From Leucobacter salsicius M1-8 (lineage in GTDB: Bacteria > Actinomycetota > Actinomycetes > Actinomycetales > Microbacteriaceae): a stretch of 64,000 nt of DNA. The notes beneath the pieces were generated by a model. It was not told where the DNA came from. It searched no databases and worked only from the letters and a program-made list of their open reading frames with translations. Below, one piece after another: positions 1 through 26,402 of this stretch. The stretch is from NCBI RefSeq assembly GCF_000350525.1, contig NZ_AOCN01000013.1:1-64000 (forward strand), written 5' to 3'. Within the stretch, counting starts at the first letter, position 1. The number at the start of each line of letters is the position of its first letter. The translations under genes were made by a program, and so were the position numbers.

Positions 1-71
1 CGACGGGCCGTCGCCGTAGAAATCGTCGTATAACTTCGTATAAGTGTATCGCTATACGAAGGTTAGTTACG
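1..71. other. 454 paired-end linker artefact (chimeric read end)
   Basis: Bases 26-71 match the 42-base 454 Titanium paired-end linker, which carries loxP: the left arm ATAACTTCGTATA is perfect. The only differences are single inserted bases at about 44 (G), 50 (C), 62 (G) and 66 (G). Bases 2-25 match window positions 8121-8142 on the same strand with two inserted C bases (4 and 12). This is the order expected when a fragment running from about 72 to 8142 is circularised through the linker and read across the junction. These bases are not native sequence at this place. Confidence 0.93.
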
Positions 72-501
72 AGAACTCGTGCGGATAGCGCGTACCCGCG
101 TCGGCGGGCAGGCCCACCGATTCGAGCGCCTCCGCTACGCGCGAGCGCGCCCCGGGTCCGTGAGCGAGCCCGAGCGACTCGAGCGGCTCGGCCACGATCC
201 GGTCGACGCGCTGGCGCGGGTCGAGCGACGAGTACGGGTCCTGAAACACCGCCTGCACCGACCCCCGAAACCGACGCATGAGCGACCGATCGCGCAGCTG
301 CAGCGGCGCACCCTCGAACAGGACCGAGCCGCGGCTCGGCGCCGCCAACCCGAGCAGCAGGGCGAGCAGCGTGGACTTGCCCGCGCCCGACTCCCCCACG
401 ATGCCCACGGAGTCGCCCGCGCCCACACTCAGGTCGATGCCCTCGAGCGTGAGCCGCTTGCCGTACGAAAAGTCGACCCCGCGGGCCTCGATGAGCGTCA
501 C
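72..501 (-). CDS. Peptide/nickel ABC transporter ATP-binding protein, DppF/OppF-like (3' end missing)
   Basis: This is the second ATPase of a peptide-type ABC importer and would power uptake from the cytoplasmic face. About 143 residues are present. They contain the Walker A motif GESGAGKST near residue 37 and the Q-loop stretch AVFQDPYSSLDP, which is typical of the DppF/OppF family. The reading ends at PHEFS, immediately before the expected GGQRQR signature, because the linker artefact starts there. The missing half (signature, Walker B, H-loop, C-terminal oligopeptide domain) is therefore lost from the assembly and is not evidence of a broken gene. The start ATG overlaps the stop of the upstream ATPase by four bases, so the two are translationally coupled. 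The family usually has 250-330 residues. Confidence 0.9.
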
Positions 502-1379
502 TGTGCCCCGTCCTCTGCGCTTGTTCCGGATCCCGGCTCGCCAGCAGCCCCATCGAGCGCGGCGTCGAGCACCCGTGCGTGCGCGACAAGTTGCGCCGTG
601 TACGGGTGTGCAGGCGAGTGGACTAGCGATGCGACCGTTCCTTCTTCGACCACGTCCCCACGCTGCAAGACGAGCACGCGGTCGGTCATGCGCGACACCA
701 CGGCGAGATCGTGGCTCACAAACAGGAGACCCATGCCGCGTTCGGCCACGAGCCGGTCCAGCAGCGCGAGCACCTCGGCCTGCACGGTCACATCAAGCGC
801 GGTCGTCGGTTCGTCGGCAATGAGCAGCTGGGGTCGCGCGGCCAGCGCCAGCGCAATCGCGACGCGCTGCCGCTGCCCGCCCGACAGCTCGTGCGGAAAC
901 GCGCGCGCATACCGAGGCTCCGTCAGGCTCACCTCGGTCAGCGCCTTCAGCACCGCGGCCTGTAGGGCAGCCCCGCGCAGCCCAAGGTGACGGCGCATCG
1001 GCTCGGCGATCTGCTTGCCCACCCGCATGAGGGGATCGAGCGCGGTCAGGGGCTCCTGAAACACGATGCCCGCGACCGCGCCGCGCAGCGGCTTCAGCGC
1101 GGTCTCGCTGGCTCCCACGGTCTCGACGCCGTTCAGCAGCACCGACCCCGAGGCCGTGAGCATCGACGGAAGCAGGCTGGTCAGGGCGAGCGAGGTGAGG
1201 GATTTGCCGGATCCGGATTCCCCAATCAGCCCCACCCGTTCCCCGGGAGCGACCGTGAACGACACCTCGTTGACCAGCCGGGCCGTGCCCGTTGCGATCG
1301 AGAGGTCGGTCACGCGCAGCAGCTCTGGCGGCGAGGCAGGAGCAACCGAAGTAGCAGCAGTTTCAGAGGCGGCGCTCAC
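498..1379 (-). CDS. Peptide/nickel ABC transporter ATP-binding protein, DppD/OppD-like
   Basis: This is the first ATPase of the importer, 293 residues. Walker A is GESGSGKS near residue 53, the Q-loop is VFQEPLTALDP, the ABC signature is LSGGQRQRVAIALAL, Walker B is LLIADEPTTALD, and the H-loop is FVSHDLAVV. The C-terminal HPYT motif is characteristic of the OppD/DppD branch. It starts at GTG overlapping the permease stop by four bases and runs directly into the second ATPase. It should pair with that protein as a heterodimer on the DppB/DppC-like membrane subunits. The substrate (peptide, nickel or other small solute) cannot be told from the ATPase. Confidence 0.93.
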   Translation of the reverse strand: MSAASETAATSVAPASPPELLRVTDLSIATGTARLVNEVSFTVAPGERVGLIGESGSGKSLTSLALTSLLPSMLTASGSVLLNGVETVGASETALKPLRGAVAGIVFQEPLTALDPLMRVGKQIAEPMRRHLGLRGAALQAAVLKALTEVSLTEPRYARAFPHELSGGQRQRVAIALALAARPQLLIADEPTTALDVTVQAEVLALLDRLVAERGMGLLFVSHDLAVVSRMTDRVLVLQRGDVVEEGTVASLVHSPAHPYTAQLVAHARVLDAALDGAAGEPGSGTSAEDGAQ

Positions 1380-2305
1380 GCGGCACTCCCCTTTCGGCGG
1401 GTCGGGTCGGCGACGTCACGCAGGCCATCCGCGATGAAGTTCACGCCGAGCACGAGCACGATGAGTGCGATACCGGGAGCGATCGCCCCAGCGGGGGCGA
1501 CGAGCACGGTGCCCTGCGCCTCCTGCAGCAGTCGACCCCACGAGGCGTTGGGCGGCGGAGCCCCGAGACCGAGGTATGACAGGCTGGCCTCCGCGAGCAC
1601 TGCCGCACCGAACTGGAGCGCGAACGTGACGTAGAGCGTGGGGGCCATGTTCGGCAGCAGATGCCGCCACACGACACCCCAGGTCGAGGTGCCACTGGTG
1701 CGCGCGGCGGTGATGAACTGCTCTGACGCGATGCGCTTGGCGAGGATGCGTGAGATTCGTGCGACCACGGCCGACATGGCGAGGCCGATCGCGATGATCG
1801 CCGAGCCGAGCGACGGCGGCTGCAGCGCGACGATGAGCATGGCCGTGAGTAGCACGGGGAAGGCGATCGCGACGTCGATGAATGCTGAGATTGCGTCGTC
1901 AATCCAGGAGGTCGCGAGTGCCGCGACGAGGCCGATAATGACGCCCAGCACGGCCGCAATCGCGACCGACCCGAGCCCCACCATGAGCGCGATGCGTGCA
2001 CCCACCATCAGCTGGCTGGCGAGGTCGCGGCCCAGCTTGTCAGTGCCGAGCAGGTGTTCGAGATTCGGGGCCTCGAGCCGGCCGCCCGAGGTATCGTCGA
2101 GCGCGTACGGCAGCCACACGAGCGACACCAGCGCGGTGAGCACGACGAGGCCAACCATTACGATGCCCGCCCACAACGTGATGCTGCGGCGGCGCTTCTT
2201 GGATCCGGATCCAGTACCAGCGGCCTGAGCGGCCTCGCGGCCGTAAGTATTGGGCGCCCCGGGCCCACCAACAGACCCGGTCGCGCCGGTCACTGGAGCG
2301 GTCAT
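1376..2305 (-). CDS. Peptide/nickel ABC transporter permease, DppC-like
   Basis: A 309-residue inner-membrane permease of the binding-protein-dependent transport family. An N-terminal cytoplasmic stretch of about 40 residues is followed by a first membrane helix (about 42-64). The region LGTDKLGRDLASQLMVGARIAL is a hallmark of DppC/OppC proteins. The coupling (EAA) loop lies around residues 200-250, with IASEQFITAARTSG and HLLPNMAPTL. It starts at ATG inside an ATGA overlap with the DppB-like gene and ends in a GTGA overlap with the ATPase gene, so it belongs to one tightly coupled operon. Confidence 0.93.
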   Translation of the reverse strand: MTAPVTGATGSVGGPGAPNTYGREAAQAAGTGSGSKKRRRSITLWAGIVMVGLVVLTALVSLVWLPYALDDTSGGRLEAPNLEHLLGTDKLGRDLASQLMVGARIALMVGLGSVAIAAVLGVIIGLVAALATSWIDDAISAFIDVAIAFPVLLTAMLIVALQPPSLGSAIIAIGLAMSAVVARISRILAKRIASEQFITAARTSGTSTWGVVWRHLLPNMAPTLYVTFALQFGAAVLAEASLSYLGLGAPPPNASWGRLLQEAQGTVLVAPAGAIAPGIALIVLVLGVNFIADGLRDVADPTRRKGSAA

Positions 2306-3264
2306 GCGCTAACTCCCGTCGTGGCGCGGAGTCTCGGGTCCACGAAGCGCTGCGCGAGATCGGCCGCGAAGCCGACGAGCAGCACGATGAGTGTGGTCAC
2401 CACGAGCACTCCTTGAATCGCGGCGAAGTCGTGGCGCGCAATGCCGTCGACGAGGTAGCTGCCGAGGCCGGGGAGCGCAAACACGCTCTCAACGACGACC
2501 GCGCCCAGCAGCGTTGAGGCGAGCTCGATGCCGAGGATCGAGATAACCGGCACCGAACCGTTGCGCAGGCCGTGACGCCACAGGGCCTCGCCGAAGCCGG
2601 AACCGTGGGCGCGGGCCGTGCGCAGGTAGTCGCTGCCGAGCACGTCGATCGTGGCAGAGCGCACGTACCGCGTGAGCGAGGCGCCCATCACGATCGCGAT
2701 CGCGATCGCGGGGAGCGCGAGGGACGACAGCGCGTCGACCGGATAGGCCCAGTCGTCGGTAGGAAACCCGCCGGTCGGAAACCAACCGAGCATGAGTCCG
2801 AAGATCCAGACGAGGATCATGCCGATCCAGAACACGGGCACCGCGATGCCGAACTGCGCGACACCCGAGAGCGCGACGCCGTACCAGCGGTCGGCGCGCA
2901 CGGCGCTCGTGACGCCCGCGACGAGGGCGACGATGACCGCGCCCACGAACGCGATGAGCGTCAGCGGAATCGTGACCTGTAGCCGGGCAGCGACGTCCGG
3001 GCCAATCGCGGCACCGGTGATGACCGATTCGCCGAGGTCGAAGCGCAGCATCTGCGCGGCCCACGCGCCAAACTGCACGAGCAGCGGCTTGTCGGAGCCG
3101 ACCTGGGCCTGGGCCGCAGCAATCTGCTCGTCAGTCGCGCCCACCGAGAGCAGCGCGTTCGCGGGGTCACCCGGCAGCATTCGCAACAGCACAAAGATCA
3201 GCACCATCGCGATCGCGAATGATCCGAGCAGGAGCGCGCCACGTCGCAGCACGTATCCGAGCAT
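2302..3264 (-). CDS. Peptide/nickel ABC transporter permease, DppB-like
   Basis: This permease partners the DppC-like subunit; 320 residues from the chosen start. I chose the ATG at 3264 because AGGAAGGA lies a few bases upstream and the product then begins MLGYVLRRGALLLG, the usual start of DppB proteins. The upstream in-frame ATG at 3333 would add an unconvincing 23-residue leader. The protein has a first helix near residues 8-30, the family sequence LRMLPGDPANALL, and the EAA-type loop YLRTARAHGSG. It sits downstream of the binding-protein gene beyond a hairpin at 3326-3365, a common arrangement that keeps binding-protein mRNA in excess. Confidence 0.92.
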   Translation of the reverse strand: MLGYVLRRGALLLGSFAIAMVLIFVLLRMLPGDPANALLSVGATDEQIAAAQAQVGSDKPLLVQFGAWAAQMLRFDLGESVITGAAIGPDVAARLQVTIPLTLIAFVGAVIVALVAGVTSAVRADRWYGVALSGVAQFGIAVPVFWIGMILVWIFGLMLGWFPTGGFPTDDWAYPVDALSSLALPAIAIAIVMGASLTRYVRSATIDVLGSDYLRTARAHGSGFGEALWRHGLRNGSVPVISILGIELASTLLGAVVVESVFALPGLGSYLVDGIARHDFAAIQGVLVVTTLIVLLVGFAADLAQRFVDPRLRATTGVSA

Positions 3265-3325
3265 CGGTGTTCCTTCCTGGCCGGGGCGAGCGCCCTGACG
3301 CATGAGAGTATTCTCTCGCGTGAAA

Positions 3326-3365
3326 CAGCGCAACGCGCCGAGGTCTCCCCCGGCGCGTTGCGCTG
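3326..3365 (-). terminator. Strong hairpin between binding-protein and permease genes
   Basis: A perfect 15-base-pair inverted repeat, CAGCGCAACGCGCCG at 3326-3340 and its complement at 3351-3365, with a 10-base loop. No clear U-tract follows on the minus strand. Inside an operon between the binding protein and the first permease it more likely trims or partly terminates the message than stops it fully. Confidence 0.75.
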
Positions 3366-3404
3366 CGTCGTTACAGCTGGTGGGTGTTGCTCGTTTCTGG
3401 CCCG

Positions 3405-4910
3405 CTATTCTTTGACGATGTCGTAGGCGAAGAACTGCGAGTTGAGCCCGTTGACGGGGTAGCCCGAGACGCTGTCAGATGCCACGACGATCTGCGGGTA
3501 GAGGTAGAGCCACACGCTCGCCGCATCGGTCGCGATCTGGCGGTTCGCCTTCTTGAGCAGGTCGGCCTGTTCGGCTTCGGTCTTAGCCTGTTCTGCGTCC
3601 GAGATCCAGGTGCTGACCTGGGGGTTATCGTAGCCCCAGTAAAAGTCGGGGTTGCCGTACCAGACCACGTCGCGGTCGTTGACGTGCTCCTGCAGCGTTG
3701 CCTCGAAGTCGCGCTCCTTGAACACCTTGGTGTACCACTCGTCGGCGCTGATCGTGTTGATCTTGACCTCGATGCCGACCTTCTTCAGCTCGGACTGCAG
3801 CAGCTCGGCGACCGCGGGGTGCGGGTCGTAGCTCGGGGTGTCGAGCGTGAACGTGAATCCGTCGGGCAGGCCGGCTTCTGCGAGCAGCTTGGCTGAGCGA
3901 TCCGGATCATAGGGGTTCAGATCGTTCAGATCCTCGTACCACGGGTCACTCGGGGGCACCATCGAGCCGATCAGGGTGCCGTAATCGCCCCAGATCGCGT
4001 TCAGCAGCTTCTCGCGGTCGATCGCCGAGTAAACGGCCTGGCGCACCTTGGCGTCGTCAAACGGGGCAACGCGGTCGTTGAAGGCGAGCAATTCCTTGGT
4101 GGTGGACTGGCCTTCACTGATCGTAAAGCCGCCCTCCTGCTCGAACTGCGGCAGCGAGTCGGGGTTCTGGACGCTCGTGATGAGGTCGACGCGGCCGCTG
4201 CGCAGCGCTGTGTCCTCTGCCGTGGCATCGGTGAAGTAGTTGAACACGACCTGCTTGTTGGCGGCCTTGTCACCCCAGTAGTCGTCCCAGCGGTTGAGCG
4301 TGAGCGTTGAGCCGCGCTTCCACTCGCCGAGCGTGTAGGGGCCGGTGCCGTCGGCCTGCTTCTCAATGTCAGTGGCATCTGCGTTAATGATCCACACGTA
4401 CGAGAGGAGGTACGGCAGCGAGATCGACGGCTGCGCCAGCGTGAAGACAACCGTGTGGTCGTCGGGCGTCTCAATGCCCGTGATGACCTCAAGGCTGCTC
4501 TTGCGCGCCGACTGCGAGTCGGGGCCGAGCACGGCCTCGAGGCTAGCCTTCACGTCTGCCGAGGTGAGCTTCTTACCCGACTGGAACGAGACGTCGTCGC
4601 GCAGCGTGTAGGTATAAACGAGACCGTCCGCGCTCACCTCGTGGCCGGTAGCGAGCAGGGGCTCGACGGTGCCATCGTCATTGAGCTTCGACAGGCTCTC
4701 GTACACGTTGCCCGTGAGCGCCTCGGTGACGCCCTGGCCACCGCCCGCGGTGTTGCTCAGGTTGACCGGCTCGTAGAGCGAGCCGATCGAGATCTTGGCA
4801 TCGGCACCGGTCGCGCCACCGCTGCTCGAGCCCGCGCACCCGGTGAGCGCGAGGGCCGAAACGGCGAGCACGCCTGCAGCGGCGAAGAGGTGCTTCTTGA
4901 AGGAGGGCAT
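3405..4910 (-). CDS. ABC transporter substrate-binding lipoprotein, family 5 (DppA/OppA type)
   Basis: A 501-residue extracytoplasmic binding protein. The N-terminus is a lipoprotein signal with the lipobox LTGC (Cys at about residue 25), followed by a Ser/Gly-rich linker. The body has features of SBP family 5 such as GLVYTYTLRDDVSFQSGK, DDHTVVFTLAQPSISLPYLL and the GTGPY segment. It is first in the operon and delivers solute to the permeases downstream. Family members bind peptides, nickel chelates, sugars or opines, and I cannot separate these from sequence alone. Confidence 0.93.
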   Translation of the reverse strand: MPSFKKHLFAAAGVLAVSALALTGCAGSSSGGATGADAKISIGSLYEPVNLSNTAGGGQGVTEALTGNVYESLSKLNDDGTVEPLLATGHEVSADGLVYTYTLRDDVSFQSGKKLTSADVKASLEAVLGPDSQSARKSSLEVITGIETPDDHTVVFTLAQPSISLPYLLSYVWIINADATDIEKQADGTGPYTLGEWKRGSTLTLNRWDDYWGDKAANKQVVFNYFTDATAEDTALRSGRVDLITSVQNPDSLPQFEQEGGFTISEGQSTTKELLAFNDRVAPFDDAKVRQAVYSAIDREKLLNAIWGDYGTLIGSMVPPSDPWYEDLNDLNPYDPDRSAKLLAEAGLPDGFTFTLDTPSYDPHPAVAELLQSELKKVGIEVKINTISADEWYTKVFKERDFEATLQEHVNDRDVVWYGNPDFYWGYDNPQVSTWISDAEQAKTEAEQADLLKKANRQIATDAASVWLYLYPQIVVASDSVSGYPVNGLNSQFFAYDIVKE

Positions 4911-5001
4911 TGAGGTCCTTTGATGCTTGAGGGGTCGAGGAACTGGGTGCTACGGGAGCGGGTGATTACGATCTGAATCGCGACCGGGCCCGCCACCCGA
5001 T

Positions 5002-5787
5002 TTAGACGAGGGAGTCGTAGATGTCGAAGTCGCCGGAGAAGCGGGGCTGCTTCTCGCCCGCGGTGATCGCCCAGGGCAGGCGGTTCTGCGGAGGCGGCAT
5101 CGGGCAATTGTACTGCGCCGAGTAGCCGCAGGGCGGCACGAACGCGCGGTTGAAGTCGAGTCGCACTGGGGCGCCAGCCGTGCGCTCGGCGCCGGTGAAC
5201 TCGACGAACAAGAACCGGCCCGCGCCGTAGGTCTGTGAGTCGTCGGTCGCGGTGTTGGTCGAGTCACCGAAGACGAGCAGCAGCGTGCCATCGTCATCGA
5301 ACGCGGCGAGCGTGAACGTCTGTCCGTCGCGCTCGAAGGTGATGTCGCCGGGCACGATGAGGTCGCGGGTGCCTCCGGCGTCGCGAATATGCTCGAAGGG
5401 CACGGTGCGGTGGGCCGCCACCGGCGTGAAGGTGGCGTCGATGACCCAGTCGGGGTTGTAATCGAACGTGTCGACGCGCTCGAACGCCTGGATCGCCGCC
5501 GAGTTCGCATCCCACACGCGGAAGCCGTACTCGGGCTCGCCAGTGTTGATGTTGGTGCGCTGCAGCTCGGTCACCGTGATGCCCGCAGCGTCAGCGGCCC
5601 GAGCCTCAGCCACCTGAGCGGCAGCCTCGTCGGCGGTGGTGCCGGCGGGCAGCCAGCGCGTCAGCGTGAGACTCAGGTTGCCCGTGGGGCTGGTGAGTGC
5701 CTCGTGCCGGCCCTGGCGCCAGGCGTCGTGTGCAGCGATCTCGGTATCTACGGCGGTGCTCAATTCGGTGTCCTTCGTCGCGCTCAT
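5002..5787 (-). CDS. DUF1684 family protein
   Basis: A 261-residue soluble protein, with no signal peptide visible. It shows the C-terminal DUF1684 hallmarks: LDFNRAFVPPCGYSAQYNCP, then PPPQNRLPWAITAGEK and a terminal DIYDSLV. The N-terminal half has alternating strands that include LIVPGDITFERDGQTFTLAAFDDDGTLLLVFGD. The biochemical role of the family is not known to me. The two Cys in the PPCG and NCP motifs are conserved in the family and may bind metal (inference). It is transcribed toward the peptide-ABC operon, about 90 bases upstream of its binding-protein gene, and could share its transcript. Confidence 0.85.
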   Translation of the reverse strand: MSATKDTELSTAVDTEIAAHDAWRQGRHEALTSPTGNLSLTLTRWLPAGTTADEAAAQVAEARAADAAGITVTELQRTNINTGEPEYGFRVWDANSAAIQAFERVDTFDYNPDWVIDATFTPVAAHRTVPFEHIRDAGGTRDLIVPGDITFERDGQTFTLAAFDDDGTLLLVFGDSTNTATDDSQTYGAGRFLFVEFTGAERTAGAPVRLDFNRAFVPPCGYSAQYNCPMPPPQNRLPWAITAGEKQPRFSGDFDIYDSLV

Positions 5788-5972
5788 TGCTTGAGTATCT
5801 CAATGCGAGCTATTCAATTACTGAAAGTATCGCGCATCTATCGGCTTGCTCGCTAATTGAACCTGACACAGGCCGTAACGTTTGTCCAGCGCTTCCTGCC
5901 CGATTCAGCCCATCCGGGGAACCTGTTATTTCAGTCTTGACTTATATAAGGCATGGTGGAACCATAAAGGAC

Positions 5973-6341
5973 ATGCACGCGCTCGATATTCTCGGAGACC
6001 CGGTGCGGCGGCGCATTCTCGAACTCGTGCGCGACGGTGAGGAGCCCGCTGGCGCGCTAGCCGCGACGATCACCGATGAGTTTGGCATCAGCCAGCCCGC
6101 GGTCTCACAGCACCTGCGGGTTCTGCGAGAGAACGGCTTCGTGACAGTACGTCCCCTAGGCACGCGTCGACTGTACGCCATTGATCCGGAGGGGCTTCGC
6201 GAAGCCAGCGAGTGGCTGTCGCCATTCGAACGATTCTGGCGCGGCCCCCTCTCGGCTCTCGGCACCGAGCTCGCCCGGGGCAAGCGCGAACGCAGGCTTG
6301 CCGAATCGAATAACCAACCCCATACACCCAAGAAGGAGTGA
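5973..6341 (+). CDS. ArsR-family transcriptional regulator
   Basis: A 122-residue winged-helix repressor. The segment LGDPVRRRILELVRDGE is the usual opening of ArsR proteins paired with SRPBCC genes. The recognition region ISQPAVSQHLRVLRENGFV is intact, followed by the wing GTRRLYAIDPEGL. There are no metal-binding cysteines, so it is not a classical arsenic or metal sensor. I used the ATG at 5973, preceded by AAAGGA; an upstream extension would read through non-protein-like sequence. It sits head-to-tail with the SRPBCC gene, five bases apart. Such pairs are usually autoregulated. Confidence 0.9.
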   Translation: MHALDILGDPVRRRILELVRDGEEPAGALAATITDEFGISQPAVSQHLRVLRENGFVTVRPLGTRRLYAIDPEGLREASEWLSPFERFWRGPLSALGTELARGKRERRLAESNNQPHTPKKE

Positions 6342-6346
6342 CCATC

Positions 6347-7012
6347 ATGGTTGACGTATCCAAGCAAGTCGACGCCGTGACGCGCGGCCTGCAGGTTGCC
6401 GAGGTCGACGGCAAAGCCCTGAACATACAGACCCTCTCGCAGGTGTACCCCGCGGGCATTGACGACGTGTGGAGCGCCGCGACGAACGCCGAGCGCATCA
6501 CTCGCTGGTTCCTACCGGTCTCGGGCGAACTCGAAGTCGGCGGCCGCTACCAACTTGAGGGCAACGCCGGGGGCGAGGTAGTCGAGTGTTCGCCCCCGCG
6601 CGACGGCACCGCCGAGTACCACGTGACCTGGGAGATGGGCGGCGGGGTGACCTGGCTCACGGTGCGCCTCACCGCCGAGGGCACTGAGGCGACTCGCTTC
6701 GAGCTCGAACACCGCGCACTGGCCTCGGACATCCCCGCGGGAATGTGGGAGATGTTTGGTCCCGGTGCCACCGGCGTGGGTTGGGACGGCGGCCTGTTGG
6801 GCCTGTCGCTGCATCTGGGTGCAGTCGAGGGCTCCCTCTCCCCCGCGGAGGCCGCGGCATGGGCGGCGACTGACGAGGGCAAGGCCTTCTACCGTGGTGC
6901 CGCCGATGGGTGGGCCACAGCGCACGTCGCCGCGGGCGCCTCACCCGAGGCGGCCGCGCAGGCCGCCGACGCGACCTTCGGGTTTTATACGGGCACCGCA
7001 CCCGGCGCATAG
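6347..7012 (+). CDS. SRPBCC (AHSA1-like) domain protein
   Basis: A 221-residue soluble protein. The first ~145 residues form an AHSA1/START-like fold, with the typical opening VYPAGIDDVWSAATNAERITRWFLP followed by GGRYQLEGNAGGEV. The C-terminal ~60 residues are Ala-rich and helical. I chose the ATG at 6347 because AAGGAG ends eight bases upstream; the GTG at 6338 overlaps that ribosome site. It is co-transcribed with the ArsR regulator. The family binds hydrophobic ligands or acts as co-chaperone-like proteins, and the ligand here is unknown. Confidence 0.87.
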   Translation: MVDVSKQVDAVTRGLQVAEVDGKALNIQTLSQVYPAGIDDVWSAATNAERITRWFLPVSGELEVGGRYQLEGNAGGEVVECSPPRDGTAEYHVTWEMGGGVTWLTVRLTAEGTEATRFELEHRALASDIPAGMWEMFGPGATGVGWDGGLLGLSLHLGAVEGSLSPAEAAAWAATDEGKAFYRGAADGWATAHVAAGASPEAAAQAADATFGFYTGTAPGA

Positions 7013-7019
7013 CCGCGAG

Positions 7020-7067
7020 GTCGCCCGGCAGTGCGAGGGCCAGTCGCCCTTGCACTGCCGGCGCGAC
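7020..7067. terminator. Bidirectional terminator hairpin between convergent genes
   Basis: An inverted repeat of about 20 paired bases, GTCGC.CGGCAGTGC.AGGG at 7020-7039 against the complement at 7047-7067, with a seven-base loop. It lies in the 76-base gap between the SRPBCC gene (+) and the M13 peptidase gene (-). No long U-run is visible. Confidence 0.75.
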
Positions 7068-7088
7068 TAAGCCGACAGAACCGCCGAA

Positions 7089-9065
7089 CTACCAGATCGA
7101 GACGCGCTCGGCCTCGTCCATCCACAGGGCGTCGCCGGGTACCGTCGCGAACGCCTCGTGGAACGCCTTGAGGTTCTTTACGATCTGGTTGCAGCGGAAC
7201 TCGTTGGGCGAGTGTGGGTCGATCGACAGCAGTCGCTTCGTCTCCTCGGGGCGCGACTTCTGCTGCCAGGCCTGTGACCAGGCGAGGAAGAAGCGCTCGG
7301 CGCCCGTCAACCCGTCGATCACCGGCGACTCGGCACCGGCTAGCGAGCGCAGGTACGCCTTCCACGCGATCTCGAGCCCCGAAAGGTCGCCGATGTTCTC
7401 GCCGATCGTCAGCTCGCCGTTGACCGTCTGGCCGTCGGCGCCCTCGGGCGAGAGCTCGTTGTACTGCGAAATCAGCGCGCCCGTCAGCTTTTCGAACGCG
7501 GCCCGATCCTCCTCGCTCCACCAGTCGACCAGCTTGCCGTCGCCGTCGTAGCGCGAGCCCTGGTCGTCGAAGCCGTGCCCGATCTCGTGACCGATCACGG
7601 CACCGATCGCACCGAAGTTGGTCGCCGCGTCCCACGTCGCGTCGAAGAACGGCGGCTGCAGAATAGCGGCCGGGAACACGATCTCATTGAAGCCGGGGTT
7701 GTAGTACGCGTTGACCGTCTGCGGGGTCATGAACCACTCGTCGCGGTCGATAGGCTTGCCCATCTTCGCGAACTCGCGGGCGAACTCGTACTCAGCGACC
7801 CGGCGCGAGTTGCCGAACAGGTCGCCCGCGTCGGCGGCGAGCGCCGAGTAGTCGCGCCACTTCACGGGGTAGCCGATCTTGGGGGTGAACTTGTCGAGCT
7901 TCTCGAGCGCGCGCTCGCGCGTCTCGGGGCTCATCCACGCGAGCGAGGTGATCGAGTCGCGGTAGGCCTCGATGAGGTGGCCCACGAGCTCGTCCATGGC
8001 ACCCTTCGAGTTCTCATCGAAGTGGCGCTCAACGTAGAGCCGGCCGACAGCTTCACCCATGGCGCCCTCCACGAAGGAGACGCCTCGACGCCAGCGGTCG
8101 CGCTGCTCGGGGGCACCCGTGAGGGCCGTGCCGTAGAAATCGAAGTTGGCGCGCGAGATCTCCTGCGACAGGAGCGCCGCCGAGCCGCGCACGACCGCCC
8201 AGGTGAGCCAGGCCCGCCAGGCCTCAAGCTCGCTCTCTACGAGCAGCGAAGCAATGCCCGCGAGCGCGTCGGGCTGCGCAGCGACGACCTCGGCGAACGC
8301 CGACTCGGGCGCCCCCATGGCCGTCAGGTACGCCGACCAGCCCAGCTCGGGCGTGAGCTCCTGCAGCTCGGCGAACGTACGCAGGTTGTACATCTTTTGA
8401 ATGTCGCGGCTCGCAACCTTGTCCCAGTGGGTAGCGGCAATGCGCTGCTCGAGCCCGTAGGCGAGCTCGGCGACCCGCTCGGCGTTCGCGACGCCCGCGA
8501 GCCCCAGCATGCGCTCGATGTGGGCGCGGTACTGCCCACGAATCTCTTCAAACTGCTCTTCGCGGTAGTAGGACTCGTCGGGCAGGCCAATACCGCTCTG
8601 CATCACGAACACGATGTAGCGATCCGGATTGCCGGGATCGTTGTCGATAAACATGCCGAAGAAGCCGCCGAGCCCCTGGCGCTCGAGATCCGCGACGAGC
8701 GCGGTGAGCTCGTCGATCGAGGCCACCGCGCGCACGCGCCCGAGATCGGCCGCGATGGGCGCGGCCCCCAGCTCGTCGGCGCGCGCGGTGTCCATGAAGC
8801 TCGCGTAGAGGGCCGCGACCTTATCTGCTTCGGTGTGTGCGCCGGATCCGGGCGCCGGGGCATCAGTATGCGTGATGATGTCGCGCACCGCGGCCTCGGC
8901 GTTCTCGGCCAGCACGGCGAAGGAACCATAGCGGGCCTTGTCGCCGGGAATCTCGGTGCGATCGATCCACCGTCCGTTGACGTGGCGATACAGGTCGTCT
9001 TGCGGGCGGGTCTCGGGGTCGAGTTCTGCGAGGTCGATGCCGGAGGCGGGCGCTGCGTTGCTCAT
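7089..9065 (-). CDS. M13 family zinc metallopeptidase (PepO/neprilysin-like)
   Basis: A 658-residue oligopeptidase. The zinc-binding helix VIGHEIGHGFDDQG (HExxH) lies near residue 490, and the third ligand motif ENIGDLSG (ExxxD) near residue 555. The N-terminal region has the usual PQDDLYRHVNGRW opening. The end (NEFRCNQIVKNLKAFHEAFA) resembles the PepO C-terminal motif, with SIW at the extreme terminus. There is no signal peptide or membrane anchor, so it is predicted cytoplasmic, as actinobacterial PepO forms often are. It likely trims peptides. The start is probably leaderless (see 9072-9077). Confidence 0.94.
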   Translation of the reverse strand: MSNAAPASGIDLAELDPETRPQDDLYRHVNGRWIDRTEIPGDKARYGSFAVLAENAEAAVRDIITHTDAPAPGSGAHTEADKVAALYASFMDTARADELGAAPIAADLGRVRAVASIDELTALVADLERQGLGGFFGMFIDNDPGNPDRYIVFVMQSGIGLPDESYYREEQFEEIRGQYRAHIERMLGLAGVANAERVAELAYGLEQRIAATHWDKVASRDIQKMYNLRTFAELQELTPELGWSAYLTAMGAPESAFAEVVAAQPDALAGIASLLVESELEAWRAWLTWAVVRGSAALLSQEISRANFDFYGTALTGAPEQRDRWRRGVSFVEGAMGEAVGRLYVERHFDENSKGAMDELVGHLIEAYRDSITSLAWMSPETRERALEKLDKFTPKIGYPVKWRDYSALAADAGDLFGNSRRVAEYEFAREFAKMGKPIDRDEWFMTPQTVNAYYNPGFNEIVFPAAILQPPFFDATWDAATNFGAIGAVIGHEIGHGFDDQGSRYDGDGKLVDWWSEEDRAAFEKLTGALISQYNELSPEGADGQTVNGELTIGENIGDLSGLEIAWKAYLRSLAGAESPVIDGLTGAERFFLAWSQAWQQKSRPEETKRLLSIDPHSPNEFRCNQIVKNLKAFHEAFATVPGDALWMDEAERVSIW

Positions 9066-9612: not shown

Positions 9613-12600
9613 TTATCCCTCGCTCTTTGCGCGCTGGCGGCGTATTCCGATAAACACGACGGCCAGGCCCAACAGCACCGCGAGGCCTGCAAGCCCGAGT
9701 TTGAGATCGGATCCGGTGATGGCGAGGTCGCCGACCGGCACCTGCACGAACGGGTACCGCAGTGTGTCATCGCCGTGAATGTCGGCGATGTCCACGTTAC
9801 CCGCGTCGTCGAGCGTGACGATCTGTGCCTCCAGGGAAACGATGAGCTCCCCCTCTGCCACCGCCGTGACGCTCCCCGCGCTCAGGGTGTAGCCACTCGG
9901 GGTCTCCGTGGTCGTGCGGTATTCCCGCGGCTTCAGGTAGCCCGCTGCAGCAGCATCGAAGTCGGTGGGAAGCACCTCGAATGAGTAGCGTCCCTCATCG
10001 TCCGTCAGCTGCACCGAATTGCCGAGGATATCCTCCACAACCGTCCAGTCGCCGTCGATGCGCTCCCACAGCGTGATCTCCTGGTCGGCAAGCGCGAGCT
10101 CGCCCTTCTGCTGCTCACCGTCCTCGTTGGCGTCGTCCCAGACCACTCCACCGATCTCGGCGAAGTGCTCATAGGTCTTCAGCCCCAGGTCCATCTCGAG
10201 GTCATCGCGCACGGTGGTGAAGTCCACGACCTCACCGGCCAGGTCGGCAATCGAGAACACGTGGGTGACGCCCGTGTGGGCCCCACCGAACTCGGAGCCG
10301 ACCGTGCTGGCGTCACTGACGTCGCTATCGATGGCCTTATCGTCGCCCACATTCAGCGGCGACCACGACTCGTAACCGTTCCGGTCAGACGTGACCCGGT
10401 ACTCGCGCGGCTGCAGGAAGTTAGCCTCGCCCTCGTCGTAGTGAGTGGGGGTCACCTCGAACGCGTAACGGCCGCGCTCGTCGGTGACCTGCGTGCGGGC
10501 GCCCCGCACGTCGTCGGCTGGAGTCCACACGCCGTCCACAAGCTCCCACAGGGTGACCGTGCGGCCCGGAGCACCGAACTCCTCACCACTCTGTAGCCCG
10601 TCGAGGTCAGCGTCTTCCCAGATCGCACCACCGATCGTCACCGACGTGTCGTAGACCGCGAACCCGGCGTCGGCCGTGCGCACGTCGCGCGCGGTATCCA
10701 ATTCCACGCGACCGTTGTCGGTATCGACGAGAGTGATCGGCTCGGTCAGCACGTAACTGAAGGGCTTCTCGATGTCGATGCCGCCGTAGTTCGGGTTGCC
10801 CGCGGCGTCCATCAGGCTGCCCGCGTAGAAGAAGACGTTGTCAATCTCTACGAGCCTCATCTGGGCGGGCGCTTCGACCAACACGCGGTATTCCTCGGCC
10901 TGCCGGTAGTGCGGCGACTGCTTGTCGAGGTCTGCAACCTCGACCGCAAATTCGTAGCTGCCGTCCGCGGCAGAGGTGACCGAGGAGTTGCCATCCAGGT
11001 CCTTATGGGCTTCCCACAGCCCCGAATCCTGGTTCAGGCGGAACAGGTTCACCACGAGGCCGTCAATGCCGGGCTCGTCGCTGGCCTGCGCGCCATCACG
11101 GTTCAGGTCCTCGAACAGGGTGTCGCCGAGCACGCGCACGGAGTCGTGCACGACCACGCCACCGTCGACTCCCAGGTCATCTGCCGAGGTATCGAAGCGG
11201 GCAAACCCGCTTCCATCAACCGCCACCAGCGTGACGACGTCAGCAACCGCAGTGTGATCCGGATCAGCAATACTGTGCTGGTAGCCCTGTGAGGCTCCCT
11301 CCCCGAGGCTCACGAAGTTCGAGTCGCGCGCAGTGTCGCCGCCCGCCTGGTGCGGCGCAACGGTCTGGCGCGAGGACAGGGTCATCTCGACCACATACTC
11401 GAACGGCTTGTTGAGGCCCGGGCTCGCGGGGTCGGTGTTTGCGACCTCGGCCGTGAACGTGTAGCCGCCGTCTGCGTCGGTTACCGTTTCCTCGACGGGC
11501 ACCAGCTCGCCGGCAATCAGCTTGTTGAGGACGACACGGACACCCTTGATGCCGGGCTCCGTCGGGTCCTGCACACCGTCACGGTTCTGGTCGTTCCAGA
11601 TGTAGTCGCCCAGCGTGACGTGAGTGGCCAGCGGAATCAGACCGAGATCGACATCTTCAGCGGGCACGCCCGCGAACGTTTCAATCGGCAGCAGCTGATC
11701 TGCGTCGCGCATGGCGCCCAGGATCCGGGGATCCGACACGGCCGTGTTGGAGACGGCACGCTCCGCGTGCGTGAAGTCGCTGTCGAGCGCGGTGTCCGTG
11801 CCCTGCAGCTTCTTCGTCACCTCCTGCCAGAGCGGCACCTCTCCCACCTTGACGCGGTACTCGTAGGGGGTGAGCGCCTTGTTGTTGATGATGTGCAGGT
11901 TCTCAAACAGGTACTCGTTGACGTCGGTGAGTTCGATGGTCGCGTCGGCTGCCGTCGCGAACTCGGGCTCAATCATGACCCCGTTGGCGTCCTGACGAGC
12001 AGGCACCCAGTCGTTGCCCTGACGCACCTCGAGGGCCGCATGGTAGATGCTGTCGGCCTGCTGCTTGTCGTTCTGCACGCCGTCACTGTCAGTATCGATA
12101 AACACTTCGCCCGAAAGGGACGAGTGCCCATGCTTGACGAGCCCGAGGTCGATGGTGTTGTCGGTGATACCGAAGTCCACGCCACCCACCGTCTCGATGA
12201 TGCTCACCAGGTGGGTGCCCACGGCGCCCGCGTGCATCGTGCCATTCTTCTCGAAGTCCGAGTCGACCTCGTGCGCGGAGTCGGGCCCAACTGAACCCGC
12301 CCGAGTCTGTGCAAACGTGTATCCGGTCACCAGATCGTCCACGACAACCTGGTACTTCGTCTCGATGCGCTTGCTGCCCTCGTAGAGGCTGCTCGGCACG
12401 TCACGGAAGTAGTAGTAGCCGTCTGCATTCGACGTGGTCGACTGCGTGAACGCGGTGCGGGTCCAGTCGCCGCCATCGCGAGTGTACTGCTCTAGCCGCA
12501 GCTTCTGGCCTGCAATGCCAGGCTCATTCGCGTCCTGAATACCATCGCGGTTCAGGTCGTCCCACACCCGGTTGCCGATCACGCCTACGGTCGATCGGTC

Positions 12601-15600
12601 ATAGAAACCGATGCTCACCGAAAGCCGCTCGGCAAACTTCGACTCGACCAGCTGCTGCAGGTCGAACTTCAGCGCGTTGGTCTTCACGACCGTCGATCCC
12701 TTAGGGGTGACGCCGTCGTTGTCATCGGCCCGGTTGAACGGGTCCGTGTGATGCACGATCGGCGAAACGACTGTCTCGTGGTTAAACGCGTTGTTCTCGT
12801 CCGTGACCTCGATCGTGTAGCTGCTGTCCGTCGGCAGCACCGTGAAGTCGTATGTGCCGTCGGTACGCGTCTGCATGACCATGTCACGACCCTGCTCGTC
12901 GACGACGGTCTTGCCATCCGATCCCTTGAGGGTGACGTAGTAGTCCTTGATGCCGGGCTCGCCGGCGCCACGGATGCCGTCTAGGGTCTTGAGCTGCTCC
13001 TTAAAGATGGTGCCGCCGAACTTCACGGTGTGCGCCACCCCCATGTCGAAGCTCATGCGCTCATCATCGGTCGTCGCCGAGGTCACGTGCGCAACATCGG
13101 TGATTGTGACGAGCGCGGAGTCGTTGACCGCGGCGGGAATGCCCGCGGCTACTCCGGGCTTGAACACGCTCACGCCGGTGTCCTTGAACACCTCCAGGGT
13201 CGTCGCCGAGAACTGGTCATACGCCTTCGGGAACTCGAACATGACCCGGTAGTCACCGGGCTTGATGTTCGAGAACGTGTAGTACCCGTCGTGTCCGTTA
13301 AAGTCCTGCTCGGTCACGGTGTCAATCGGTCCCTCCGAGCGGATCGGCTTCGAGAAGACTTCATCAAGCACGGGCTTCCCGTCCTTGTCGACAACAACCC
13401 AATCACCTGCCACCCGAGCGATCCGATTGCCCAGGTAGTCGACGTTGTATCCCTCCGGCGACAGCAGGGTGACCTTGACGCCGTTGATGCCGGGGTCGTC
13501 GATCGTGCCGTCGTAGTCCAGGTCCTTTGAGGGCTTCAGCAGCGTGCGGCCATTGCCATCGACAAACGAGTCGCCCTCGTCTTGCAGGCCGTTGTAGTCC
13601 ACGTCGTTCCAGACGTAGTTGCCGATGTAAGCCTTGTCCTTCTGCTCCGTCACGAATGCGCCGGCATTGTTGGACTCCTGCGGCAGGAAGCGGCCCACCC
13701 GCTGGGTCGCAACGAACGAGTTCCACACGGCGTAGTCGCTTGCCTCGCCCTGGGGGAACTGCTCGAGAAACGCCGGAGCGTTCAGCGGCGCGTGCATGTT
13801 GTAGGTGAGCTTGAGCTTGTTCTGGCCCGGAAGCACTTCATTGGCGTTGTTGAAGAGCACCAAAATGCTCTTTGCCTTCTTCAGCAACGCTTCGTTGCCC
13901 TGCACATCGGCGAGCTTGACGAAGTGCGCGTCTCGTACGGCCGACGGCTGGCCGGGCACACCGAGGGAATCGTAGAACGATTCCTTGGCGGCCTCGGCCT
14001 TCGCAACCATGTCGGCCTCTACGATCTCACCGTTCGGCAGCTTCTTCATCGGGCCGACATAGACCGTGTACTCGTTCTTGCCGTAGAGCTTCTTGTCGGC
14101 GCCCTCGCGTTCGAGGCGCATACCGTCGGCCTGCAACCATGCCGAGTACTTCGAGTTGCGCGGGGTCGCCCCGTCAAACATCGAGGTGTCACCCAGATGC
14201 GGCAATTCGTCAAACATGATCGGGTAGGGGTATGCGCGGTCGTCGGCCTCCTTCGAGTTATCGACCGCGATCTCAAACGTGAAATCTCCGCCCTCACGCA
14301 CCGGGGTCATGTTGGGCGAGACGGTGCCGGCCTTGTTCAGGTCGGAGTAGGCCACCTTTCGTTTGCCAAAGTTATCGAAGGTCTCGTACTGGAACATCGT
14401 CTTCTCGGAGAAGACCAGGCGGTCGTTGGCCTTGTCGTTTTCGTTGTAGTCGTTGTTGTCGGTCGCGTACCCCAGCTTGTTCGACGCGTTCTGTCGCGAG
14501 TTCAGGGGCGACAGCAGTCCGGTGCTGTTGGTGATCACGGCCCGCGACTTCAGCCCCTCGGCGTCGGTACCCGGCGAGTACGCGTCGACCGATCCGATGA
14601 ACTCGACCACAACCTTGTCCCCGGGGAACACGTCGCCCTCGAACCACACGGACACCACGTTACGGTCGAGACCGTCCCAGGGGCCCGCATAGATTCGCGT
14701 GTGCTTCAGCTTCGACTCGGGGTGTGCCTCCGTGCCGTCGGCACGCACCAGCTTCCAGGTCCACAGATTGTTCTGTTGGTCCGTCAACGAGTAACGCGAG
14801 CGGTGATCGGTGCTGAGCGGGTGCCCCGCATCGATGTCTTCCTGCGGCACATAGGTGAACTGTCCGCCAGCTTCCATCACCGCGGGCAGCTGGAATGTCA
14901 CGAACGGGTCGATCAGCATGTCTTCGGAGTAGATGTTGTCTTCATCACGCGACCACATTGAGTCGTCGGCGTTGATGAACTCACCCTTGAACTTCAGGTG
15001 CGGGGACGACTTCGGGGAGATGGCCAGCACGTCCGACCAGCCGAACCGTTCGTCGACGGGCTTCGTTGAGTCGCTTCGGTAGTAGAGCGCGTCGTAGTTG
15101 ACGTTCACGACCGGGCGTGAGGGGGTGAGGTACGAACGCGACTCGCTCTGCGCGAGCTTGGAAACGCTCGTGCCCACGTAGTTGCCCCACACCTGCGCGG
15201 TGTCGTAGACGAACAGGGTCGATACTGCGTCTGACGAGACGCGCACACCCAGCTTGATCGCGAAATCGGTCACGGTGTTTGGGTAGGTCGAGGTGCTGTC
15301 GTTGGCTGGGTCCGTATCGAGCACCGACTGCTTTCCATCCAGGTCCGGATCAGCATCGACATCAAGTCGCAGCCCCTGGGGCACGAGGTAGTTGTCGGGG
15401 TCGAGCGCCTTCACCACGACCCGAACCTTCTTGAGGCCCGGTCGATCCTGCTCGGGAATGTCGAAGCGCTCGTTCGTGTCGATGGGGGTGCCACCGGGGT
15501 TGAGCAGCTGCCAGGAGCCCGCCTCGTATCCGTCTTCTGCCTGCTCGTGTGAGATGTACACAAACGTCTTGAATGCCTCATCGACGCTCGTGCCGTTTGC

Positions 15601-18600
15601 AGCGAGGCGGTCGAGCGTATCCTGCGGGAGCGCCCACGTACCCGATGACACAAAGAACGTGTTCGTGTTGATCTTGCGGTTACTGACCGACACCGTGCTG
15701 TCGCCCGTGGTATCGGTGGGCAGGATGTTCTCTACCACAAATTCCTTGAGCCCCGAGCCAGTGTTTTCGGCATGGGTGATCAGGTACTCGATCGTGTCCG
15801 ACGAGTTGAAGTAGGTGTCACCCGACATGCCGTTGGAGTAGGCGATGCGGGGGCGCGTGGTGTTGACCCGCACTTCGGCCTTCGGCTTCAGGACCTCAAT
15901 CTCGGCGTCATCCTTCGCAAAGATGCTCTCGAGGTCGCCGTTGCTATCGATGTCTTCCTGCGCACGATGATCAGTCTCGTGCTCGTGGTAGATGATCGAC
16001 TTCAGCGACTGCACGATGAAATCGTCGGGGTGCTGCCCGCCCTCGATCAGCGTCTTGTCGTTCGGAATGAGCGACACGTAGGAGTCGACAATGAGTTCGT
16101 CGGCGGTCCACACCGGGTCGCCGTCTAGGACGTTGTCAGTGAATCCCTCCACGAGCTGTGCCTCGTAGAGCAGCTTGAAGCTCTCACCCGAGCGCAGTTC
16201 ACCGCGAGTGCCGCGATCGTTGGCTGGGGTAGTGACCAGCCACTGGATCCGGTTGCGCGTCGAGTCCGCCTCGATCTCTGTGGGAGTCTCGCGCGTGACC
16301 GTGTAGCCGAGTGCCTCAAATGCCGCACGATCGTACACATCGCTGCCGAGCTTGATGCGGACATCGCCGGTCGCCTCCGCGAACTTGGTGACGTACTGCG
16401 TCACCAAGAAGCGGGAGTTGTGCACGTCACCCGAGGTCTTGTTCTCCTCGTACGGGTTCGCGTGGGGCGTGGGCGCGTTCGTGACCTCGGTGGAGTACCA
16501 GTACTTGCCCGCGGCATCGACCTGGATCTTCTCCTGTTCGACCGAGTCGGCGTAGTTCGCCACCCGAGTCGAGTTGGTGATCGAGGGCTTCGCGAGGTTA
16601 AGCTTCGTGCCACCGAAGGCGCCCGACTTGTCGTGCTTCGAGGCGAGGCCCGCGGGGGTGAGGTCGACGCCTGGCACCTGCCAGTTGACGTTCTCATTCA
16701 GTGAGATTGCGGTCGCATCGTCGTAGCGCTTCGTGGGCGAGATGAGGCGCTCGGTGACCTTGAGCGCCCCCATGTTGTTGCTCCACGTGCTGGTGGCGTC
16801 GCGCCGCGTGCGGTCGTTCGCGGTAATCGAGAGCCCGTTCGACGACTTTACGTTGTTCGGGGCGCTCGAAACACCCTGGTCGCGCGAGGTCAGGGACGGC
16901 GTCGCGCCGGTCTGGTACCAGTCAGACACGACCGGGTTGAAGACGGGGCGCTTGGTGTTGGCGAGCGTCACAACCTCTTGATAGCGAGCATCATCCGTGT
17001 CCGCACCAAACGCCGGGGTGTCAATGGTGACGACCTTCGGGGAGATCACGAGTGACTGCCCGTACGCGATGTCTGCCGCCCGGTCCTGATTCACCGTGAA
17101 GTGCATGACATAGCGCTCGCCGTGCACGCCCTTTTCCAATTCAACCGTGACGTTGAAGAACTCGGTCACGTCGGTCTTGAGAGTCGAGGACTTGAAGGTG
17201 ATGTCGTTCACCGTGGCGGCGAAGTCGACATTCTGCACGCTCTGAATATCGCTGTAGTAGCGAGCGTAGGAGCCGTCCTTCATCACGGGAACGACGCCGT
17301 AGGGCAGTGCGATGGTGACCGTCGGCTCGAACCAAGAGCCTCGAGCGCCGCCGATGGTCTGTGGCGCGTTGACCCAGATGTCGGCATTGTAGTTATCACC
17401 CGAGTAGCGGTTGTAGCCACTGTTAACTCGGTTGTACTCGCCGATGACCTCGAGCTGCTGGTTCTCGACGGTCGATTCGATCGTGAACTCTTCGTAGAGA
17501 TCGACGCTGAAGTCCTGGATCGAGCGATCATAGGGCCTGCCGTTCGCCCCCTTCGTAGCCTCGTACTGAGACTCGTCCTTGGTCGCCTTGCTCCACACGC
17601 GCAGCGTGGGCTTGCGCATGGCAATCTGGTCGCCCGTGACGAGCACGGGCTTGCCGGTTGCTGCCGTCACGTCGGTGACCTGCGCGTTGAGGCCGCGCAC
17701 GTACTTACCCCAGGGCTCCACCGAGTAGTAGGAGGTGTAGTACCCGAAGTCGTACAGGAGGTCGTTGACGTCAAGTCCCTCTGACATGCCGTCGTTCGGG
17801 TACCGCCAGGGGTTCACCGTGCTGATGCCCGCGTTGAAGGCCCCGTACTCCTTGCTGTATACCTCGGCGTAGGCTTCGTCCGCCAGCGTGGTGAGGGTGA
17901 ACTCGTCGTGCCAGTACGAAATCCCGTCTGCCGAGGGTGGCAGCTCCTCGTACACGCGCACTCGCAGGTCGACGCGCTGATTTTTGTCGGCCGCAACCGC
18001 CTGCGGGGCGTTGAACATTCCGGTCAGCGGGGCGGCAACCTTGATTTTCACGACGTACGGGATCATGTCGTCGCGTGAGGCCTCGGCGAAGCTGCCCGCC
18101 TCCTGCGACTGGGCAGGGGCACGGTAGCCGCGATCATTTGTCGGGCTCTGGGCGACCTCGACCTGGTAAGTAGTCGGGTCGAGCGCGCGGCCCGCACCGT
18201 CGAAGGCGGTGACTCCCAGCAGGGCGCCCTGTGCGTCGTAGGGCGTGATGCCGAGCGGCAGGATCTCGGTGTACTCGAGCCCGCCGACGATCGGGTAGTC
18301 ACCGAGGTTCGCTGCGTGCAACTTCACGGTGAACTCCTCGTGCAGCTGGACGGCGTAGCTGTGGCTGTCTTCCACGTAGGGGGTCAACCCGTAACGGTGA
18401 CGGTTGGACGAGTTGAGCGAACCGTCGTACTCGTAGAAGTTGGCGTCGCCGAACTTGCTCACGTCGGTCGCGTTGCGCTCGACGTCGGGCACCATTTCGC
18501 TCGCGCCGTAGAGCCACGCACGGTTCAACTGCATACCGTCTTGGGTCCAGAGGATGCGCTCGTCTGCCGTGACCTTGAGGTCGTTGACGCGCCCCTTCGA

Positions 18601-21600
18601 GGCAAAGGCAAAGTTCTCATCGAGCGTCGACGACGTAAACGTCGTGTAGAGGTCGTTTGCCTCCGTCTCTCGCAAGTAGGCCTGGTGCGACTTCTGCTTA
18701 TCCGCAGACGAATCGTAGAAGGTGGTCTGGGTGTACGAAGTCGACGAGTCGCTCGCGTTGCGGCGCTGGTTGTTCGCGCCGGGCTGCCACGAGTACGAGT
18801 TCGACAGGAACTCTGCCTTCGTCATTTCGTGACCCTTGTCACCACTGATCCCCGCGTCGTGCAGCAGCGAGGCCATGTCCATGGCAACGGTCTTGGCAGT
18901 GTTCGAGACCGGTGCATTGCTGCCGTACCAGCCGAAGAACGGCGCAAACACCGATTTGCCGTTCGGGTAGGTTGCCACGGGCAGGTCGTTCGTGCGAACC
19001 GTCGCCCGGTAGATGATCTCGAGCTGCTCGCCGCGGCCCAGCTGTTCATCCTCGAAGGTGTAAGTAAACACCTGGAACTCGATCTCGTCGGCCGGGTTCA
19101 CTGCGGTGTTGATCGGCTCGGTGCTCGACAGACGACCCCAGCCATCGTTGTGGCGGTCGTTCCTAAACTCCTGCGATCCGGCAATATCCAGCCCTGGCGC
19201 CGTGCGCACCGTCACCTTGGGCAGTTTGAGGTCGGTGCGCGGCTGGCCGTCTGCCTGCAGCACCCGCAGCGTCAGCTTGCCATCGGCAATGGCCTGTTCG
19301 ACGTTGAGCACACCGCCGCTCACGTAACCCGCAAGTTCGGTTTCCAGGTACTCGGGAATCTTGTCAAAGACCACCGGGTCTTTGAGCGGTGCCTTGCCGT
19401 AGGACGTGTTCGTGTTGATGCCCTGCGAGCTGTTGTGGTTCTTCGCGGTCACTCGGGTGAAGAAGGTGTCACCCGGGCGGTACCCGGACTTGCCGATCAA
19501 CGTGCCGTTATAGGGGGCGTTCGCCTCATCGAGCGTCTCGAATGACTGCAGGTTGAACTCGACTGTGGGGATCGCCTTCCATGCCCGGGACGTGGCTTTG
19601 GAGGTGTAGTGGTACTCCGCGACCGGAGCACCCGCCTCGTCCTGGTGCGTCAGCATCATCTGCGCCTGCGAGGTAATGTCGTACCACTTCTTGGTCTGCT
19701 GGGCTGGCTGTTTGCCCTCGGCTTTCCAGTGCCCAATGCCCGCAATGTCGAACTGCGGCGCCTCGAACATCGCGCTGCTGTGCATCGCCGGCACGACACC
19801 GTACGCGATCCGGAGCTCGTTCACATCGCTCAGCTTGTGTGCCGCAGGATCGAAACTGACCCAGTTCTTCTGGCCGCTCTGATTGAGGCCGTCGAGGATA
19901 AACACCTGCGGCTCGGCGAACTCGCCGACAAAGCCGGCGGGGTAGCTCGGCTTGGGCAGCTCCGTGAGCTCGAAGCCACCGAGAGCGAGCGTGTCGAGCG
20001 TCAGGTACAGGTCGAGACGGGTGTTGTTGTGCAGAATCTCGTTCTTGATGTTCTTGACCGTGAGGGTCATCTTCTCGCCCGAAACGTTCTCGGTGTTGAA
20101 CTTGCTCTCGATACGGAGCTGGTCGGGGTCAGCGTACTTGTAGGCGTGGTTCGAGACCAGACCGAGGTGTTCGACGAAGGCGTCGCCGTCGTAGTTCTTC
20201 TGCGCCGTCGCGCCCGAGACTCGGTTTCCGTTTACGCCATCGCTGTTGTAGCTCATGACGTGGTGCGCGAAGGCGGGGCGGGTGTAGATGTTCCACACCG
20301 GCAACTTGCCCTGGGTGATGCTGAGGTCGGTGTTTCCGTCGTCCGTCGCCGTGAACTCAACATAGAAAAACACCGATTCATTGTGCTCGAGCGTGAGATC
20401 GTACTCGACGTCGGCGCGCTTCGGGTTGAGCTGCGAGATCGCCACGTTTTCGGCGAGTACCTGCTTGGCCTGCACGGGGTTGGGTTTCGCCTGCTGCGTG
20501 ATTTCGTCGATAAGCGAGCTGCGATTGCCGTCGGCGAGCAGCACGTCAGATGCAGCCTCAACGGCTGTGATCTCGAGGTATGCCGGGGCCTCGATGTGCG
20601 CCTGCGGCTGGAACACCGGGATCGCGCCAGCCTCCGTGTCACTGGGTGCCGGGGCACCGACGTTCCGCACTTCATACAGCGCCTTCACCGTGTCACCCAC
20701 GGCGATGTTGCGGTAGTCGATCTGCTCGCCAGTGTCGGCGTCGTAGAACAGGTGCGTCGCGTCGGCGCGCGTGAAGTCGTTGTTCATGTGCACCGCAGAG
20801 GTCTGCATCCGCGCGACGCGAGTGTATAGGCGGGGCGCCTTTTGGCTGGTTGACGAGTTGCCCGTGTGCGTCAGCGTCGGCTTCTCCCCGCGGTTGCCCG
20901 AGGCGCCATCGGTCACAAAGATCGGCTGGTATGCGGTGACCTGCGCGTTCGCGTTGAACGTGCTGTCGTACATGATCTGCTCGTGGCTACCCTTGGGGCG
21001 CTGAGTTTCATGCATGAACGTGGGCTTGGAATCCCAGTTGTGGTCGGTGGCGTTGGCATCGGGGTCAACCCAGACGCCCGATACGAGCACGTTGGCGCCC
21101 TCGCGCATGCGCTTGGGGAGGGTGACGCCGGGCGCCGGCTCGGCGAGCGAGCCCCACAGCCGTACCGTGTCGTCCTTGGGCACGAAGGTGACCGCGATGT
21201 TGTCGACGTGCTGCTTGAGCAGGGTCCCGGCCCCACCGAGCGTGACCTTGGTCTGCTCCGTGGACAGTGCTCCCGAGTCAAAGAGGGGCTGCAGGTTGAA
21301 CTCGTAGTTTCCTGCGCCATTGAGGCTGAAGTCGGCCGGATCAACGTCCACGGCCTTCGACCCCTGAGAGACCTTCACTGACTTGACTGACCAGTCGCTG
21401 TCCGTGAAGATATCTGCCGGGATCTCGATGAGCTGCGAACGGAAGGCCGCATCGGGCTTCACGTTGATGAGCACCGTCTTGATATCGGCCTCGGAAGTGT
21501 TCGTGATGCCCACCTCAACACGGGAGGTGTTGGGGGTGACCCCGTCCTTCCCGTAGTCGTACGCCTTCAGGCTGTCGAACTGCATGTCCAGCGTCGCGCC

Positions 21601-25980: not shown

Positions 25981-26402
25981 ACGATTCCTTGAGGGCGCAA
26001 GCCCGCTCCTGGCTTCTTGTGAAAGCCAATTATTGAAACAAGAAAGGGGTACTTCCTGTGGCGTTCGCTGCCCCGCAACTGAGCAGGATACAAACAGCAC
26101 GAAAGCAGCGCGGCGGTCTGCCGCGCTACTTGCTATCGGGGAGGAAAGAACTGCCTGCAGGCGCACCGGATAGCTCGACGGTGCACCGCATAGCAGCAAG
26201 CGTCTTTTGGACACGCCAAAAAGAAACGAGTATTAGCCACGAACTCCCCCAGTTGTTCAAGCGACCACAACAGTAAGCCCCATCCCCACGGGGCCTACAT
26301 ATATACCCAGCCTACTAAGTTTTGCTTACCTATAATTTGTACCGAGTCCACGCCCGGCTGGCCTTTCGCTGTGACCTCGCACGGCCGCAGTACGATGCCA
26401 AT
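25981..26402. promoter_or_regulatory. Divergent control region and leader of the giant surface-protein gene
   Basis: This 422-base gap separates the giant gene (-) from the MATE gene (+). It holds: a hairpin AGCGCGGC/GCCGCGCT at 26107-26127, followed on the minus strand by a T-rich stretch; a 15-base imperfect direct repeat, GGCGCACCGGATAGC at 26160-26174 and GGTGCACCGCATAGC at 26180-26194 (13/15 identical, 20-base period); a hairpin near 26274-26297; and TATAAT at 26331-26336 (+), a candidate -10 box for the MATE gene. The minus-strand message may carry a leader of up to about 300 bases. I could not match it to a known riboswitch. Confidence 0.5.

Follow-up and report, generated by a model that had tools for sequence, protein, structure and literature searches.

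A lox sequence at a contig start in Leucobacter salsicius is a sequencing artefact, almost certainly an untrimmed 454 paired-end read

The lox sequence at the start of contig C13 in the Leucobacter salsicius M1-8 assembly is a sequencing artefact and not biology, and bases 1-71 almost certainly represent the beginning of a 454 GS-FLX Titanium paired-end read that was left untrimmed. This short stretch combines a full linker, a fragment tail before it and the fragment head after it, an artificial contig edge, and errors of the pyrosequencing type. The window, by which we mean the whole stretch of 64,000 nucleotides analysed here (C13:1-64000), begins at base 1 of a contig of 96,828 bases, and is thus bounded on its left by the contig edge. 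The assembly consists of 28 contigs totalling 3,185,418 bases; the genome report, as excerpted, gives the same 3,185,418 bp and 28 contigs for strain M1-8T, in one scaffold (PMC4148977).

The 454 Titanium paired-end loxP linker occupies positions 26..71 (+ strand). All 42 of its 42 bases are matched in the alignment, and the 46 bases found here differ from it by four one-base insertions (G, C, G and G), with no substitutions or deletions. The linker letters are those of a 42-base sequence, printed in both strands in the cited part of PMC5199103, that was screened as adapter from Roche-adaptor, Cre-circularised mate-pair libraries. The 24 bases at 2..25 (+ strand) are a displaced mate: they copy 8121-8142 on the same strand, with 22 of 22 bases aligned and two inserted C. 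Both assignments were made by the sequence-only reading, and the alignments bear them out. The genuine position of the mate, 8121..8142 (+ strand), lies by alignment and gene call within an M13 peptidase gene (7089-9065, - strand), whose product has a Pfam Peptidase_M13 match and was aligned over residues 1-658 in four of six relatives, namely those whose fetched stretch matched. Bases 1-25 have a local score of 38 against 8121-8142, compared with 28 for the runner-up site in the window and 32 for the best foreign match among 60 control 25-mers drawn from the window. Base 1 itself does not match 8120, which counts against the linker-read explanation. The 71/72 boundary is good to two bases, since the CG that closes the linker completes a serine codon and may be genomic.

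The linker is confined to this place in the genome. A gapped lox pattern has one site in the window and none in 100 shuffles, and a whole-genome search finds a single copy of the lox-like pattern. No second linker was found in the genome, where the only other match (13 bases at E 9.8) falls within the same linker. Among 46 contig ends (54 examined, 8 of them N), the C13 start has a linker score of 72 and the next best end scores 22.

As the cited part of the 454 Titanium 8 kb protocol describes, a fragment receives 42-bp loxP linkers at either end and is then circularised by Cre; a second shearing and recovery of the linker-containing pieces follow (PMC6992861). A read across the resulting junction gives tail, linker and head, and the parts found here, read directly in that order and on one strand, are 8121-8142, 26-71 and 72 onward, so that the implied insert, from 72 to 8142, is 8,071 bases. 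The circularised fragment of ~8.07 kb that the sequence-only reading had proposed is therefore the one that the alignments define. In the favoured explanation, a sheared genomic fragment spanning 72-8142 (8,071 bases) would have received loxP linkers by ligation, been closed into a circle by Cre and been sheared a second time, and a read of the junction would run from the fragment tail (8121-8142) through the linker (26-71) into the fragment head (72 onward). One read presumably carried the whole junction, and the six inserted bases may have hidden the linker from the software, leaving the read unsplit and extending the contig end. The stretch thus resembles a Roche/454 Titanium paired-end (Cre/loxP) read in its 42-base linker, in the tail before and the head after it, and in its ~8 kb insert. 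The libraries named in the excerpted genome report are 454 GS-FLX Titanium 8 kb paired-end, Illumina 150 bp paired-end and PacBio, assembled with gsAssembler 2.6 and CLC Genomics Workbench (PMC4148977); the first of these agrees with the technology and library size predicted from the letters of the contig. The same report gives 190-fold Illumina coverage, and that C12 and C13 nevertheless stop four bases apart speaks against the linker-read explanation (PMC4148977, as excerpted).

Over the 64 reference bases of linker and mate, there are six insertions, no substitutions and no deletions. The 454 flow cycle runs in the order T-A-C-G. One of the six insertions lengthens a homopolymer, and all five others fit this cycle, in the sense that the flow of the inserted base falls between the flows of its neighbours. 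Under uniform insertion, the chance of such a fit is 0.268 for one insertion and 0.0014 for five. Five alternative cycles fit between 0 and 4 of the five insertions, with T-C-A-G fitting four, so the flow test alone is not sharp. When 45 contig ends are ranked by flow-order bias, the C13 start leads with 0.57, a value attained by 0.2% of background windows, followed by the C9 start with 0.52 (0.6%). We did not adopt this bias as a signature of 454 contig ends in general, much of the C13 score coming from the linker itself.

From position 72, the window is genuine genome. Positions 72..501 (- strand) hold the 5' part of an ABC-transporter ATPase gene (143 codons plus one base), with a Pfam ABC_tran match to profile positions 1-100 of 137. 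The genes before it on the same strand encode a family-5 solute-binding protein, two permeases and another ATPase. Its 430 bases align without gaps to the orthologue in a related genome (G015), and the insertion errors are therefore limited to the linker-bearing stretch. Relatives of the ATPase in 11 other genomes of the genus are 67-85% identical over no fewer than 142 of the 143 residues; in the six of these genomes that were examined, the protein has 251-261 residues, and SGGQRQR comes next after the part present in the window. The rest of the ATPase lies in the terminal bases of C12, on the opposite strand, and reads through to its stop codon without interruption. When both parts are aligned to the G015 orthologue, that from the window corresponds to positions 1-430 and that from C12 to 435-755, so the gap between the contigs amounts to four missing bases. 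By this alignment, C12 and C13 adjoin each other, separated by about four bases. Their consecutive numbers agree with the reported single scaffold, although contig numbers do not establish order.

The ATPase frame stops because the contig stops. A truly broken gene, that is, a pseudogene cut by an insertion, would also account for an open frame that ends at 67, ahead of the signature motif. A pseudogene would have the rest of the gene absent or disabled, but here the missing half is found at the end of C12, intact to the stop codon and four bases off on the G015 scale, and we regard a pseudogene as extremely improbable. The proposal that the artefact explains why the gene stops thus stands, with its continuation on C12 falling four bases short of contiguity. 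The expectation that annotation would call the gene truncated need not hold, since the in-frame stop codon supplied by the linker yields a spurious but complete-looking frame of 144 residues at 67..501 (- strand) in the list of open reading frames.

The lox sequence could in principle be a natural one, belonging to a P1-like phage or plasmid and adjoining the ATPase gene. The core of 26-71 is indeed loxP, which is present in P1-type records, and in this respect the linker and the loxP of phage P1 and related plasmids are alike; natural sites, however, do not have the outermost bases of the linker, all 42 of which are matched here. Against 50,697 phage records, the 42-mer has 14 matches. Two of these, both phage Q33, cover positions 1-41; the remaining 12 begin at position 4 or 5 and end at 37-40. 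Matches occur in 673 of 72,556 plasmid records; among the best 20 of the 673, one Nonomuraea record matches 42 of 42 positions and the other 19 match positions 4-40. Neither 53 other genomes of the genus nor 397 others of a family sample contain the lox pattern (1 of 54 and 1 of 398 genomes, respectively, the one being the window's own genome each time; nine members of the family sample belong to the genus set as well). No phage-like feature that could account for a lox site here was identified, and a natural site explains neither the copy of 8121-8142 nor the contig edge. With flanks that are linker-like rather than those of phages and plasmids, and with no counterpart in related genomes, we reject the lox site as biology and give a natural origin only a minute probability.

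A linker introduced by a different Cre/lox mate-pair protocol and sequenced by Illumina rather than 454 is slightly less remote and still very improbable. A guppy project did combine the Roche adaptor with Illumina reads (PMC5199103, in the part cited). The libraries that the excerpted report lists for M1-8T are instead the 454 8 kb paired-end, Illumina 150 bp paired-end and PacBio libraries (PMC4148977), and the errors found here, all of them insertions, fit pyrosequencing flows.

The break at the end of C12 is not accompanied by unusual structure. For the final 60 bases of C12 the folding energy is -17.0 kcal/mol, at a z of -1.1 relative to 200 shuffles, compared with a mean of -10.3 and a minimum of -23.2 among 134 60-mers of the window, and the last 100 bases fold at -27.5 kcal/mol (z -1.0), which is likewise unremarkable. 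Because these folds do not stand out from shuffles, a hairpin was rejected as the cause of the contig break. A promoter scan of positions 1-600 found none.

Similar linkers persist in other public records. We scanned one genome per species and obtained at least 120 stretches, each of at most 8 kb; 43 from Legionella and Rickettsia were dropped and 77 kept, a design from which no prevalence can be derived. The 77 stretches contain 103 linker-like sites, of which 63 are exact, unlike the linker of C13 with its four insertions. Four tandem arrays were left out, giving 73 stretches with 55 exact linkers. We define a partner as a 40-base flank that recurs at least 500 bases away within the stretch. 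Partners were found for 25 of the 55 exact linkers, all 25 in the direction predicted by circularisation (23 in that direction only and two in that and another direction), whereas random sites have any partner in 3 of 55 cases. The 30 exact linkers that have no partner in their stretch count against the explanation, as do the two with an additional partner in another direction; a stretch of at most 8 kb is mostly too short to show both ends of a long insert.

Individual records illustrate the range of contexts. Lactococcus phage Q33 (NC_049809.1 / JX564242.1) carries 41 of the 42 linker bases at 17544-17584 (L218 and L219), and its portal protein, annotated in RefSeq at 16196-17551, ends inside the linker bases. 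In the two Q33 relatives BM13 and 50902, whose flanks are otherwise nearly identical, 37 different bases take the place of the linker, and the portal genes are annotated as longer. An exact 42-base linker lies at 3643221-3643262 of NZ_LT559118.1 (L220), an 11.85-Mb record of Nonomuraea gerenzanensis that is labelled a plasmid and has six matching places for the linker. IMG/VR viral contigs contain an exact linker in four stretches (L221-L224), twice in one of them. Two Litoribacter populi scaffolds (L032 and L067) each have four exact linkers in tandem arrays near the scaffold start, with a regular spacing of 129 and 123 bases, respectively.

Four of the linker's six frames contain a stop codon. 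Leaked linkers can make cut genes look complete, and it is somewhat more likely than not that short proteins scattered through published records include such artefacts; the two cases of linker-ended frames that we have seen are the 144-residue frame described here and the Q33 portal protein. The first 71 bases of the contig should be masked, and the 144-residue frame should not count as a protein. Reading the raw sequence alone correctly recovered both the library technology and the insert size.

Other contig edges of this assembly have a different appearance. The starts of C15, C26 and C27 and the reverse complement of the end of C11 have their 60 terminal bases in common (L138, L151, L152 and L163). 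Six plasmid records match L138 at 77-80% identity, and in five of them the matching sequence is annotated as an IS256-family transposase. These breaks look repeat-caused, unlike that between C12 and C13. Elsewhere in the window, an open frame at 9613-26214 (- strand) encodes 5,533 residues, in which repeated domains and a hydrophobic C-terminal stretch can be seen by eye.
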